NCBI GenBank assembly: GCA_030431475.1
Contig: JAUIJD010000005.1
Coordinates: 1-64,000, forward strand
Length of the DNA stretch: 64,000 nt
Direction: 5' to 3'
From: Verrucomicrobiia bacterium
Lineage (GTDB): Bacteria > Verrucomicrobiota > Verrucomicrobiia > Verrucomicrobiales > Akkermansiaceae
The position numbers and the translations under genes are program-made. Positions 37,044 through 57,644 of this stretch are shown here, one piece after another (position 1 is the stretch's first letter; each line of letters opens with the position of its first letter). Under the pieces are notes generated by a model that was given only the letters and a program-made list of their open reading frames with translations, was not told where the DNA came from and made no database searches.

Positions 37044-37191
37044 GGGTCGGAGGGAAACGCGGACTTCGGAGTCGGAATTTCACCGCGAGGCTGGGTGTTC
37101 GCGGCGGCGGGCGGCAAGGGCTCCGATACCACCCGAAGGTGGGGTCGAAATTTGCAAGGGGCACACCTGTGGCCCACGTTAAATGTTCCCA

Positions 37192-40100
37192 ATGATGTTC
37201 CGAGCTTCGATTTCCGTGCGCGCGATCGCGCTGATGTTCCTGGTGCTTGCCGGATTCGCCGCGGCCGAGGGCCGCCGCCTGGAGGTGCTCTTCCTCGGCG
37301 ACGACCGCGGTCACAAGCCGATCGAGCGCTACCGCGTGCTCAAGGCGGCGCTCGGACCGAGGGGGTACAACCTGACCTTCGTCGAGGATCTCTCGCAGAT
37401 CACGCGTGAGCGGCTCGATCGCCACGACGCCCTGATCGTCTATGCCAACCATCAGCAGGACGAGGTGCCGCCGGCCATGCTCGAGTGGGTTCGCGACGGG
37501 GGCGGGTTGGTCGCGCTGCACTGTGCCGCCGGGTGCTTCCATCCCTCGGAGGATTGGTTCGATGTGGTAGGCGGACGCTTCAAGAGCCACGAAGGCCACG
37601 TGTTTTCGCCGGAGACGGTCGATGCCGGGCATGAGATCACGCGGGAACTGCCGAAGCTCGAGGCGTGGGACGAGACGTACGAGCACCAGGACCTGACCGA
37701 CGATCGGCATCTGCTGCAGGTGCGGAAACCGATCAACAAGGGCGAGACCGAGCCGGAGCCGTGGACCTGGACCCGTGAGGAAGGGAAGGGCCGGGTGTTC
37801 TACACCGCCAGCGGGCATGACCTGCGGGTGTGGGGGCAGCCGGCGTATCAGGAACTGGTGGCCCGCGCCCTGGTGTGGAGCGTCGGTCCCGAGGTGGCGA
37901 AGGAGTTCGCGTCGCTGGAGCTGGCGTCGCTGGAACTCGAAGTGCCGGAGGTCGAGAACCGCGCGCATCCGGACATCCCGATGATGCCGCTGCAGAAGCC
38001 GCTGTCGGCGAAGCAGAGCGCCGACCACACCCAGGTGCCGGCCGGCACCGAGCTGGTGCTGTTCGCCAGCGAGCCGATGGTCGTGAACCCGATCGCGATC
38101 GACTGGGATGAGCGTGGACGGGCCTGGGTGGTGGAAAGCCTCGGCTACCCGAACGACGTGCCGACCGAGCCGGGAACGGGCGAGGACCGGATCAAGATTC
38201 TCGAGGACACCGACGGCGACGGACGGGCGGACAAGGTCACGGTGTTCGCCGACAAGCTGCGCCACTGCACGACCACCGCCTTCTACCGCGGCGGGGTGAT
38301 CGCGACCGACGGGCACGAGATCGTGTTCCTCCGCGACGAGAACGGCGACGACCGCTCGGACACCCGCCGGGTGCTGGCCAGCGGGCTGAACATGAACGAC
38401 ACCCACGCTTCGACCTCGCACTTCCTCTACGGCATGGACAACTGGATCCACGCGACGGTCGGCTACAGCGGGGTGGACATCAGGCTCGGCGACCGACGCC
38501 ACAAGTTCGGCTCGTCGGCGTTCCGTTTCCGGCCGGATCTTTCCGAGCTCGAGCTGCTGCAGCGGACGACCAACAACACGTGGGGCCTCGGTTTCACCGA
38601 GGACGGCACGGTGCTCGGCTCGACGGCGAACAACAACCCCTCGTGGCAGGTGTCGATTCCCCGGCGGGCCTACGAGCGCAGCGGTCTCGAGCAGCCGAAG
38701 ACGCCCCGGCTCGACGAGCAGCCGTTGATGTACTGCAACACGCGGGACATCACGCAGGTCGACCAGCTCGAGCGCTACACCGCGGCGGCGGGGCACATGC
38801 TCTACCACGATGAGTTCTTCGAGGGCATCGTCGAACCGGGGGCGGCGTTCATCTGCGAGCCGACCGGGCACATCGTGGCTTCGGGGACGATTCACGACCG
38901 GGGAGCGCTTCATCGCATCGACCTCCGGGGTCAGAACGTGTTCGCCAGTGCCGATGCGTGGTCGGCCCCGGTGGCGGCCCGTCCGGGGCCGGACGGAGCG
39001 ATCTGGGTGGCGGACTGGTACAATCCCATCATCCAGCACAATGTCGTGTTCCGGTTCTGGAATCCCGAGCGGGGCTACGACCAGCCGCACAGCCCGTATC
39101 ACGTCGGGGAGAAGCGGCCGGGCAAGGGCAACGCCTACGTGACCCCGCTTCGCGACCGGAAGCACGGCCGCATCTGGCGCATCGTGCCGAAGGAGGGTGG
39201 CCTGCGCGAGGTGCCGAAGCTCTCGGCCAAGGATCCGGCGACCTTGCTGCGCACGCTCAACTCGCCCTCGCAGCACCTGCGCCTGCACGCGCAGCGCCTG
39301 CTGATCGAGAACGGGCGCCCGGATCTCGTCGGCAAGCTCGCGGAGCTGGTCCGGCTGGCCGCCACGCCCGAGGGCCGAGATGCGCCGCTCGGCGCCTACC
39401 ATGCCCTTCGTACTTTGCAGGGGCTGCGCGAGGCGGGAATCGACGGGGCGCGCGAGCCGATCGTTGCCGCGCTCGAGGCGGATCACGTCGGGCTGCGCTT
39501 GCAGGCGGTGGCATCGCTGGACCCGGCCGATCCGGCGCTGTTGGCGGCGCTGCCCGGCCTGTGGGAGAAGGCATCGGCCCCACGGGAGCGGCTCGCGGTG
39601 TTGACGGCGGCGGCGCTGGCCGTGCCGAACGACGGTCTGGCGGAGGGCTTGTGGAAGGGACTCTCGGCACGCCCGCCGCGGGACGGTACGGTGGTCGAGG
39701 CGGCGAAGCTGGCCCTGCGTCGGCAGGGGACGACCTTGCTGACCGTGGCGCTGGCCGGCGGCAGCCTGCCCGGCGGCTGGCTGGACGGTGAGCTGGAGGA
39801 GATCACCCGTCGCGTGGCCAACGGACCGAACCGTGCCGCGCTGGAGCCCATTGTGGCGGCCGCGAATCCCGCTCTCGGTGATCGGTTCTCCCGCATCCTC
39901 AAGGAGGCGCCGGTGAAGAGACCCGCCGAGGAGAAGCTGCCGGCGCACCTGAACGCCGGTCGGGATGCCTACATGAAGGCCTGTGTCGAGTGCCACCAGG
40001 CGGATGGCAAGGGGGTGGAGAACACCTTCCCGCCGCTCGAGGGATCCGAGTGGGTGTCGGGCGATCCGCGGACCCTGCTGCGCATCATGCTCGGCGGCCT

Positions 40101-40332
40101 GATGGGGCCGATCACGGTGAAGGGGGTCGAATACAACAGCGTGATGCCGGGGCACAGCCACGCGTCGGACGACGAGCTGGCGGCGATCGCCGGCTACGTG
40201 CGCCATCAGTTCGGCGGCAAGCGCGAGAAGGCGGTGGATCCGAAGTACGTGAAGGAACTGCGCCCGGAAGTGGAAGCACGGAAGTATCGTCCCTGGACGG
40301 TGAAGGAGCTGTCGGAGGCCAAGGGGCAGTGA
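37192..40332 (+). CDS. Secreted ThuA / membrane-bound dehydrogenase / cytochrome c fusion
   Basis: About 1046 residues. After a signal peptide (about 1-24) come a ThuA-like domain (about 28-240), the Pirellula/Verrucomicrobium-type dehydrogenase propeller (TIGR02604-like; QVPAGTELVLFASEPMV onward, about 265-680), helical HEAT-like repeats (about 690-900) and a C-terminal cytochrome c with CVECH. Probably a periplasmic oxidoreductase for sugars or polyols with its own electron outlet. ATG at 37183, 37192 and 37195 are all in frame; 37192 is chosen because a TTAAAT -10-like box ends eight bases before it. The 139-base spacer upstream is shared with the divergent ThuA gene. Confidence 0.85.
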   Translation: MMFRASISVRAIALMFLVLAGFAAAEGRRLEVLFLGDDRGHKPIERYRVLKAALGPRGYNLTFVEDLSQITRERLDRHDALIVYANHQQDEVPPAMLEWVRDGGGLVALHCAAGCFHPSEDWFDVVGGRFKSHEGHVFSPETVDAGHEITRELPKLEAWDETYEHQDLTDDRHLLQVRKPINKGETEPEPWTWTREEGKGRVFYTASGHDLRVWGQPAYQELVARALVWSVGPEVAKEFASLELASLELEVPEVENRAHPDIPMMPLQKPLSAKQSADHTQVPAGTELVLFASEPMVVNPIAIDWDERGRAWVVESLGYPNDVPTEPGTGEDRIKILEDTDGDGRADKVTVFADKLRHCTTTAFYRGGVIATDGHEIVFLRDENGDDRSDTRRVLASGLNMNDTHASTSHFLYGMDNWIHATVGYSGVDIRLGDRRHKFGSSAFRFRPDLSELELLQRTTNNTWGLGFTEDGTVLGSTANNNPSWQVSIPRRAYERSGLEQPKTPRLDEQPLMYCNTRDITQVDQLERYTAAAGHMLYHDEFFEGIVEPGAAFICEPTGHIVASGTIHDRGALHRIDLRGQNVFASADAWSAPVAARPGPDGAIWVADWYNPIIQHNVVFRFWNPERGYDQPHSPYHVGEKRPGKGNAYVTPLRDRKHGRIWRIVPKEGGLREVPKLSAKDPATLLRTLNSPSQHLRLHAQRLLIENGRPDLVGKLAELVRLAATPEGRDAPLGAYHALRTLQGLREAGIDGAREPIVAALEADHVGLRLQAVASLDPADPALLAALPGLWEKASAPRERLAVLTAAALAVPNDGLAEGLWKGLSARPPRDGTVVEAAKLALRRQGTTLLTVALAGGSLPGGWLDGELEEITRRVANGPNRAALEPIVAAANPALGDRFSRILKEAPVKRPAEEKLPAHLNAGRDAYMKACVECHQADGKGVENTFPPLEGSEWVSGDPRTLLRIMLGGLMGPITVKGVEYNSVMPGHSHASDDELAAIAGYVRHQFGGKREKAVDPKYVKELRPEVEARKYRPWTVKELSEAKGQ

Positions 40333-40343
40333 GCTGGTGGATG

Positions 40344-40371
40344 GATTGCGGATTGCGGATTGCGGATTGCG
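40344..40371. repeat. Heptamer tandem repeat (GATTGCG x4)
   Basis: Four exact 7-nt units directly after the dehydrogenase fusion gene, followed by degenerate GGATGAGT repeats. Confidence 0.8.
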
Positions 40372-40430
40372 GATGAGTGGATGAGTGGATGCTGGATGCC
40401 GGGAGTCCCGCAGGGACGCAGGCGAGTAGG

Positions 40431-40486
40431 CCCGGGGTTCACCCCGGGACCTGGGACGGTCGATGGGTCGAAGCCCCGGTAGGGGC
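40431..40486. repeat. Two GC palindromes left of the transposase unit
   Basis: CCCGGGG-TTCA-CCCCGGG (40431-40448) and GCCCC-GGTA-GGGGC (40473-40486). The same two types stand side by side at 57462-57605. Confidence 0.7.
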
Positions 40487-40516
40487 GTAGGCGAGGCTGG
40501 CGGCGTGATATCTTCC

Positions 40517-41151
40517 GCCCCAAAGGGGCATCCTACCGTAGCCCAGGGCAACGCCCTGGGATCATGGCACATTCCCCGATTCCCAAGCCCTGAAGGGGCG
40601 TGCTAGATCCCACGATGCCTCAATCGCTGGCGAATCTCTACGTGCACCTGATCTTTTCGACCAAGGACCGATATCCGTTTCTCGCGGAAGAGGTGCGTCC
40701 CGACGTCCACGCCTACATGGCCACGGTGCTGGCGAACCTGAATTCCCCGGCAGTGCTCATCAACTCGATGCCGGACCACGTGCATGTGCTCTTCAACATG
40801 GGGCGCACGGTGAGCCTGGGGCAAGTGGTCGAGGATGTGAAAAAGTCATCGTCCCGTTGGATGAAGACCCAAGGCTCCGGCTTTGCGAAGTTTTCGTGGC
40901 AGGCGGGTTACGGAGCGTTTTCCGTGAGTGAGTCCAACACGCCGAAGGTGGCGAACTATATCCGCAACCAGGAGGAGCATCACCGGATGAAGTCGTTTCA
41001 GGACGAATACCGGGAGTTTCTGGTGAAGCACCAGGTGGCTTTTGATGAGCGGTATGTTTGGGATTAGGTCGCCCTTTCAGGGCTCGGGATGCGGGGGCGG
41101 GGCGGGTCCCAGGGCGTTGCCCTGGGCTACGGTAGGGTGCCCCTTTGGGGC
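40517..41151 (+). mobile_element. IS200-like/RAYT transposase unit bounded by 45-nt inverted repeats
   Basis: The left arm 40517-40561 and right arm 41107-41151 are reverse complements with one mismatch in 45. Each arm is itself two palindromes, GCCCC-AAA-GGGGC and CCCAGGGC-AA-CGCCCTGGG, separated by CATCCTACCGTAG (left). An inner pair, 40586-40600 and 41070-41084, matches 14 of 15. The only gene inside is the Y1 transposase. This is the layout of REP-associated tyrosine transposases between REP palindromes. Confidence 0.8.
40615..41067 (+). CDS. IS200/REP-associated tyrosine (Y1) transposase
   Basis: A 150-residue HUH single-strand transposase. The metal-binding HUH motif is in SMPDHVHVLFNMG, and the likely catalytic tyrosine in ANYIRNQEEHH near the C terminus. 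Start of the family is QSLANLYVHLIFSTKDRYPFL. It cuts and joins single-stranded DNA near palindromes. ATG at 40615 was chosen; a GTG at 40600 adds five residues and overlaps the inner repeat. It appears intact. Whether it still moves itself or serves dispersed palindromes cannot be told. Confidence 0.9.
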   Translation: MPQSLANLYVHLIFSTKDRYPFLAEEVRPDVHAYMATVLANLNSPAVLINSMPDHVHVLFNMGRTVSLGQVVEDVKKSSSRWMKTQGSGFAKFSWQAGYGAFSVSESNTPKVANYIRNQEEHHRMKSFQDEYREFLVKHQVAFDERYVWD

Positions 41152-41244
41152 GTCGGATGGTGCGGGGCGTTGGAGGTGCGGGGCGTCGGATGGTGCGGGG
41201 CGTTGGAGGTGCGGGGCGTTGGAGGTGCGGGGCGTTGGAGAGGG
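41152..41244. repeat. Minisatellite of 16/17-nt units
   Basis: Units GTCGGATGGTGCGGGGC (17) and GTTGGAGGTGCGGGGC (16) in the order 17, 16, 17, 16, 16, then a partial unit, beginning at the base after the right arm of the transposase unit. It occupies most of the spacer between the transposase and puuD; no gene seen here. Confidence 0.85.
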
Positions 41245-57397: not shown

Positions 57398-57456
57398 GGA
57401 TGGAGGATGGAGGATGGAGGATGGAGGATGGAGGATGGTGGATGGTGGATGGTGGG
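57398..57456. repeat. Heptamer tandem repeat (GGATGGA type)
   Basis: About eight 7-nt units, GGATGGA changing to GGATGGT at the right end, beginning one base after the ATG of the ThuA gene on its upstream side, so it forms the mRNA leader (TCCATCC repeats). Confidence 0.8.
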
Positions 57457-57461
57457 AGAAA

Positions 57462-57605
57462 GCCCCGGAGGGGCGTCGGCAAGTCGCCACGGGGTTCACC
57501 CCGTGGGAAAGGGCGACGGCTTGTCTCCAAGCCCCGGAGGGGCGGAGGCGGATGAGGTCACGAGATCGATGGGGGTTCGGGAATTCGCCTGCGCCCCTTC
57601 GGGGC
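57462..57605. repeat. Cluster of GC palindromes
   Basis: GCCCC-GGA-GGGGC (57462-57474 and 57531-57543), CCACGGGG-TTCA-CCCCGTGG (57487-57506) and GCCCC-TTC-GGGGC (57593-57605). The types match those beside the RAYT unit at 40431-40486. No gene in this spacer (57397-57743). Confidence 0.75.
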
Positions 57606-57644
57606 TTGAAATGTGGGCTGGGGACTGGGGGCTGGACTTGTGCT

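Follow-up and report, generated by a model that had tools for sequence, protein, structure and literature searches.

A putative REPtron-like locus of a Verrucomicrobiia bacterium, with a Y1 transposase-like gene inside nested hairpin arms that match Acido-Lenti-1 RNA

In RAYT (TnpAREP) systems, as described for GTAG-type REPs and REPINs, single divergent Y1 genes are accompanied by inverted palindromes that have a tetranucleotide foot, are dispersed over the genome, and are of a separate type for each gene (PMC8266576; PMC3733652). In the TIRYT genes and TIRtrons, including those with the double-palindrome terminal inverted repeats of Pseudomonas, the Y1 gene lies between long inverted repeats, some of them built of two palindromes, that recur in the genome (PMC3733652); the encoded proteins belong to subclasses 2.1, 2.2, and 2.5 (PMC6006769). 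Another group, TnpAY1 subclass 1.2, is marked by the motifs DH[IV]H, WQ, and Y---Q--HH and a length of ~148 aa (Quentin et al., 2018; PMC6006769). In the parts of that survey devoted to the subclass, it averages 1.7 copies per genome at 36% identity, occurs mostly in Cyanobacteria and Bacteroidetes, is nearer to IS200 TnpA than to TnpAREP, and carries the entry "REP: no".

A separate line of work has produced Acido-Lenti-1 (RF01687), filed in Rfam as a gene of the sRNA type and an orphan ncRNA candidate. The relevant entries of Weinberg et al. (2010; PMC2864571) grade it "y" as an RNA and place it in Acidobacteria and Lentisphaerae. It also figures in a list of a Vibrio genome paper, and a passage of a 2026 paper describes its function as poorly known (PMC13298647). 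In the searchable text of the open-access literature we found no report linking Acido-Lenti-1 to a transposase and, in that on subclass 1.2, RAYT, and REPINs, none of arms for subclass 1.2.

The locus described here lies in a 64,000-nt stretch of DNA, the window. It is probably a REPtron-like unit of a Y1 group with no recorded REP, in which the Y1 gene is enclosed by nested, inverted hairpin arms of its own; this reading draws on sequence comparison and on analogy with the systems above. Read from outside to inside, each flank consists of a short hairpin S1 (5 bp), a linker of ~10 nt (10 nt in the window), an nAG foot, a long palindrome L (8 bp), ~25 nt, and a second short hairpin S2 next to the gene, and the other side is the mirror image (Table 1). 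An earlier, sequence-only reading of this DNA had noticed the 45-nt outer and 15-nt inner inverted arms with one mismatch each, the composition of the outer arm from a pair of palindromes like a REP doublet, and an intact Y1 gene. These observations are borne out: as an inverted repeat the flanks score 50.5, far above the maximum of 16 among 500 dinucleotide-preserving shuffles, the two palindromes correspond to S1 and L, and the reading frame is open and complete.

Table 1. Features of the Y1 locus and of related hairpin arrays in the window (positions are those of the window)
Feature	Position	Strand	Details
Outer arms	40517-40561 / 41107-41151		inverted, 45 nt, 1 mismatch; two palindromes per arm, S1 GCCCCAAAGGGGC and L CCCAGGGCAACGCCCTGGG
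Inner arms	40586-40600 / 41070-41084		inverted, 15 nt, 1 mismatch; AGCCCTGAAGGGGCG and CGCCCTTTCAGGGCT
S1, left outer short hairpin	40517-40529	+	model R1 match 40517-40560, 62.1 bits
Left linker and AG foot	40530-40541	+	linker 10 nt; GTAG at 40538-40541
L, left long palindrome	40542-40560	+	8 bp, 3-nt loop
RF01687 match to S1 and L of the left arm	40516-40560	-	34.5 bits, E 7.5e-6
S2, left inner short hairpin	40586-40600	+	
Y1/HUH endonuclease gene	40615-41067	+	150 aa, ATG at 40615; fits TnpAY1 subclass 1.2
S2, right inner short hairpin	41070-41084	-	
L, right long palindrome, and AG foot	41108-41128	-	L 41108-41126; foot 41127-41128 (minus strand)
RF01687 match to the right arm	41108-41152	+	35.2 bits, E 4.8e-6
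S1, right outer short hairpin	41139-41151	-	
Half-element S1-L-S2 directly upstream	40405-40495	+	S1 40405-40417, L 40430-40449, S2 40472-40495
RF01687 match to the half-element	40404-40449	-	28.9 bits
Gene-less CCACGGGG-type element	57462-57607	+	S1 57462-57474, L 57487-57506, S2 57530-57551, inverted S2 57586-57607

Two further hairpin arrays occur in the window. The sequence-only reading had pointed to relatives of the repeats near 40431-40486 and 57462-57605; these repeats are real, but their palindromes are of another type than the L of the Y1 locus. In the half-element L is GCCCGGGGTTCACCCCGGGA, of the CCCCGGGGTTCACCCCGGGG kind also present at L002, and for the gene-less element a right outer arm was looked for and not found. 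Of eight tandem-repeat arrays in the window, three (40343-40374, 41147-41240, and 57398-57452) adjoin hairpin arrays, and by eye similar short arrays accompany several arms in other parts of the genome (L002, L004, L012, and L022). The large gene upstream of the locus (37183-40332) has many paralogues, with 14 matches in its own genome, one of them on the same contig at 58941-60884, and up to 23 in one of 57 genomes. Its orthologues in two related genomes, G013 (69%) and G016 (61%), are without a Y1 match and also without the downstream neighbour within 1.5 kb, and synteny around these orthologues yielded no empty site for the element.

The Y1 protein matches the Pfam model Y1_Tnp (PF01797) with 86.7 bits (cut-off 23) and the NCBIfam IS200 model NF033573 with 64.5 bits (cut-off 55). 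It contains the motifs DHVH (D54 H55 x H57), W95 Q96, and YIRNQEEHH (Y115, Q119, H122 H123). All nine of these residues are invariant across 33 sequences, and in 50 other sequences D54 and H122 are retained at 90% or more and the remaining motif residues are invariant. Near the end of the match, Y115 aligns with the tyrosine of ISDra2 TnpA that we take to be catalytic. The predicted model of the protein (mean pLDDT 92.7) has the IS200/IS605 transposases ISDra2 TnpA and IS608 TnpA as its closest solved folds, and the REP-bound TnpAREP structure 4er8 ranks 30th. Judging from motifs, model scores, and predicted fold, the protein fits TnpAY1 subclass 1.2. It resembles that subclass also in its length of 150 aa, in the few, divergent copies of the gene, and in being nearer to IS200 TnpA (PMC6006769): the 4.73-Mb assembly has eight matches, one being the query; the seven others share 39-47% identity with it, and two of them are interrupted by a stop.

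Two features set the genes studied here apart from the subclass as the consulted sections of the survey describe it (PMC6006769): they come mostly from Verrucomicrobia and other phyla, and they have conserved double-hairpin arms. Outer inverted arms, with differing palindromes, flank all eight matches of the own genome, at variance with the published absence of REPs beside these genes. We take the arms as new information on subclass 1.2 and not as a ground for exclusion from it. From the IS200/IS605 elements, which are closest in fold and, by alignment, in Y1 chemistry, the locus differs by its inverted, symmetric hairpin arms and by the divergence of copies within one genome.

The earlier assignment of the gene to the RAYT type does not stand, given 26 bits against the model of REP-associated tyrosine transposases NF047646 (cut-off 80), the Y---Q--HH motif, and the closest folds. 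The observation of the sequence-only reading is confirmed, and its interpretation is partly supported, being right in kind and wrong in family. Membership in the canonical RAYT/TnpAREP class (class 2) was rejected on the NF047646 score, on the Y motif (YIRNQ, without an NP ending), on the foot, and on the fold. As for the foot, the window copy has the GTAG that agrees with the canonical GT[AG]G, yet of the 137 distinct arms just 13 have GTAG, and 110 have YAG. The locus and its sisters resemble RAYT systems in having single divergent Y1 genes next to inverted footed palindromes, with a type for each gene (PMC8266576; PMC3733652), and the palindromes of sister types, though not that of the window copy, are dispersed in the genome; the differences lie in the class of the Y1 protein, in the additional S1 ahead of the REP-like L, in the S2 by the gene, and in the mostly YAG foot. 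The likeness to the TIRtrons is one of layout, and their proteins are of other subclasses.

Similar arms are found beside Y1 relatives elsewhere. In the own genome and its relatives, an arm-pair score of at least 20 was obtained at 25 of 34 genes (a thirty-fifth locus, L076, had no recognised motif and was left out). In named genomes, where loci came from the best 80 of at least 583 relatives and four with short flanks were dropped, the score was at least 20 at 54 and at least 15 at 62 of 76 loci, with 22 genes below 20. Control ORFs reached each of these thresholds in 1 of 239 cases. Pairs formed across loci score higher than control ORFs, because arms of different loci have palindromes in common; the 99th percentile of this null is 24.5 for the 76-locus set and 29.0 for the 34-gene set. 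The best 80 of at least 583 relatives come from Verrucomicrobia, Planctomycetes, Acidobacteria, Armatimonadetes, Bacteroidetes, and others. A plasmid of Persicobacter (Bacteroidota) has, as seen by eye, the same arms on both sides, and R1 and RF01687 each match it once (RF01687 at 35.7 bits). A more distant Y1 gene from Bernardetia has neither match, and its hairpins look different; the closest relative among 57 genomes (L067, 77%) has no matching right arm within 450 nt.

The long palindrome follows the protein. In a Mantel test against protein distances (n = 41, identical proteins removed; the two genome collections overlap, e.g., L078/L117 and L085/L135), rho was 0.555 for L (P<=0.001), 0.357 for the linker (P<=0.001), and 0.044 for S1 (P 0.28). 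Thus, L and, less strongly, the linker track the protein, and S1 does not. The trend for L could conceivably arise from linkage alone, but S1 is linked equally. Pair counts were set aside as evidence, as the arms had been picked as hairpins and the argument would be circular. The arms add another layout to those known for REPs, present next to genes from several phyla, in which protein-DNA recognition can be compared.

The same arms are described by an Rfam family. The consensus of RF01687 has the 8-bp helix, a ~12-nt linker starting with CUA, and the 5-bp helix of the window arms, and both arms match it just below its gathering score of 37 (35.2 and 34.5 bits). Other arms of the own genome exceed this score, reaching 49.4 bits. 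Folded into the two-hairpin structure of RF01687, the window arms contain no non-standard pair, and the half-element contains two. No Rfam family other than RF01687 exceeded its cut-off in 20 Y1 loci (120 kb); its 12 hits fall in six of the loci, and ten of the hits lie within ~120 nt of the Y1 gene. Conversely, of 12 loci retrieved by RF01687, three (L206, L214, and L216) have a mirrored partner within ~240 nt at E <=0.01. Very probably, the arms are the cognate partners of this Y1 group and identical with RF01687. Two points are new: a Y1 subclass listed as lacking REPs has a REP-like arm, and this arm is the same as Acido-Lenti-1. Two orphans would thus be joined, an Rfam "sRNA" whose function is unknown and the Y1 subclass without a listed REP.

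Genes and arms occur together across genomes. Arms were counted with the model R1, which was built from arms adjoining Y1 genes, and with RF01687, which provides a more independent test. Per-genome counts for both are lower bounds, the best 111 candidates having been scored for R1 in 57 genomes, and 32 (R1) and 30 (RF01687) per genome in 193 genomes of the phylum. R1 matches occur in at least 46 of the 57 genomes, with at least 108 places in the top genome. As lower bounds, the median number of R1 arms was 16.5 in 42 genomes with the gene and 0, with a maximum of 7, in 15 genomes without it (P 1.1e-6; partial rank correlation given genome size, 0.61).

Among the 193 genomes, 69 have a Y1 match, and in 43 of these it is strong (E <1e-30, a threshold chosen after seeing the matches). 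R1 matches are present in 44 genomes: 35 have both a strong Y1 relative and R1, and 8 and 9 have, respectively, one or the other alone. RF01687 was found in 48 genomes, in 31 of them above its cut-off, and in none of 14 control genomes. A strong Y1 relative and RF01687 coincide in 37 genomes, and 6 have only Y1, 11 only RF01687, and 139 neither (P 1e-23). Eight of the 11 RF01687-only genomes are without any Y1 hit, and of 26 genomes with a weak Y1 match three have RF01687. The two arm models agree in 40 genomes of this set, with R1 alone in 4 and RF01687 alone in 8.

The Y1 protein is somewhat favored as the main mover of the repeats. In the most likely mechanism, by analogy with TnpAREP and IS200/IS605 TnpA, L and its AG foot would be recognized by the protein in the form of a hairpin of single-stranded DNA, for example on the lagging-strand template; Y115 would cut near L, and the DNA would then be rejoined. 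Gene-less arms and arm pairs may occasionally spread and then persist as non-autonomous repeats. Several observations speak against the REPtron-like reading: the window L has no further copy; L067 lacks a matching right arm, and 22 of the 76 genes score below 20; RF01687 occurs in 11 genomes without a strong Y1 relative, and genomes without the gene have up to 7 R1 arms, itself a lower bound; mini-elements of G166 and G226 are enclosed by other inverted-repeat elements; the spacers in the own genome are random, contrary to what copying of whole units would predict; and no empty site was found.

The spread of repeats through the genome, which the sequence-only reading had proposed, applies to sister types, as gene-less pairs and unpaired arms, but not to the window's own L. 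With up to 3 mismatches the window L gave, beyond its own two arms, 15 and 13 pattern matches in the genome vs. 18 and 16 in the reversed control, which is control level; blastn with the left arm likewise found in the own genome only the arm itself and its partner. That reading had set against itself the case of arms found nowhere else in the genome and of a whole unit that is a mobile multi-copy IS with no solitary REPs; these arms are indeed found nowhere else, but solitary arms of sister types do occur. When up to 3 mismatches were allowed, 37 places of the CCACGGGG type were counted (54 strand hits; none in the control): one pair with a gene, seven inverted pairs without a gene (130-141 nt apart), and 21 unpaired arms. 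In the own genome, 20 of 33 arms lie in long ORFs vs. 705 of 779 random positions, a weak test in a high-GC genome; in G226, G166, and G047 the numbers are 0 of 11 vs. 443 of 552.

The seven gene-less pairs can be aligned from S1 to S1, without a common flank or a visible duplication, and further arms lie beyond the mini-elements at C89 and C105. All seven retain S1, L, S2, and their spacing, with L-S2 spacers of 20-24 nt. The identity of S2 is 0.86 vs. 0.56 shuffled, and that of the spacers is 0.47 vs. 0.43; neither was selected for, unlike L, through which the loci were found. As the spacers are thus close to random, copying of whole units was rejected as the sole explanation. Either selection acts on the hairpins of old copies, or the hairpins are renewed one by one. 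Under a bolder proposal, tentative and rather doubtful, Acido-Lenti-1 would be no RNA gene at all; as single-stranded DNA, it would serve as the substrate of a group of HUH/Y1 nucleases (subclass 1.2) that is widespread and resident in its hosts. These nucleases would keep hairpin arrays uniform genome-wide, with hairpins and their spacing retained and the spacers drifting to randomness, as though the hairpins were rewritten site by site and not spread in whole units.

An alternative that we regard as unlikely is an ordinary insertion sequence with double-hairpin ends, which moves as a whole and sheds MITE-like, internally deleted copies, single arms being debris. The gene-less CCACGGGG pairs would fit it, as would family B (the AGCCGGTGGC type, 14 places in seven inverted pairs). 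This family consists of one intact gene (L004) and six units with a common 42-nt deletion in the gene and unrelated flanks. In three of the units (L006-L008) the Y motif carries S where Y115 would stand; a larger deletion is common to the remaining three, of which two, on different contigs, are identical over 380 nt. Since the gene of these two is broken, a unit without active protein was copied recently, probably, as inferred from the sequences, in trans, and this copy also counts in favor of the REPtron-like reading. However, near-identical copies are observed only as such broken-gene units; the own genome has no near-identical intact Y1 copy, the best other match being 47% identical, and its intact genes are single and divergent. 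The unpaired arms, 21 of the 37 CCACGGGG-type places, also argue against an insertion sequence, as do the spacers of the seven pairs, whose similarity does not exceed that of shuffled spacers. Beyond S1, the six family B units with deletions (L006, L007, L008, L035, L037, and L044) have extra outermost inverted arms (GGAGCGCCGGGTTYACCCCAATGCC...), less clear at some ends and without a visible target duplication. Upstream of the Y1 gene of another sister locus, L003 (C17:55761-55911), at least two doublets of a single type follow one another on the same strand, as if arms had multiplied locally.

It is improbable that Acido-Lenti-1 is a true RNA family, a transcribed structured RNA or terminator located near Y1 genes by chance or for regulation. 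Its Rfam filing and its 2010 grade, as entered in that publication (PMC2864571), favor an RNA, and hairpins at both ends of the gene could act on the mRNA. Yet the arms are mirrored about the gene, so that the Rfam strand is directed away from it on both sides; gene-less copies are mirrored pairs as well, and RF01687 co-occurs with Y1 genes. The arms here agree with the published family in helices and linker and match it at the window and near other Y1 genes, but they are interpreted here as DNA, the arms of a Y1 element (PMC2864571). RF01687 is in use for annotation, and a section of the 2026 paper interprets it as a possible regulator of proteases in an oral bacterium (PMC13298647). Should the arms prove to mark a transposase-like system, regulator readings of this kind would have to be reconsidered.

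That the hairpin arrays are passengers of other transposons with terminal inverted repeats, the Y1 protein not being their spreader, is very improbable as a general account, because across genomes the numbers of genes and of arms are associated and the aligned seven mini-elements of the own genome stop at S1, without a common flank or visible duplication, although copies in two other genomes may be passengers. In G226, outer inverted repeats of another kind surround the seven mini-elements examined, clear in some and degraded in others. In G166, all three mini-elements examined (L227, L228, and L229) are enclosed by an element of 264-267 nt that has terminal inverted repeats GGGCCTGTCGCTTTATT as well as direct repeats of 4 bp (ATCA, CCAA, and ATCA, read by eye), as if the gene-less array had been taken up by another transposon.
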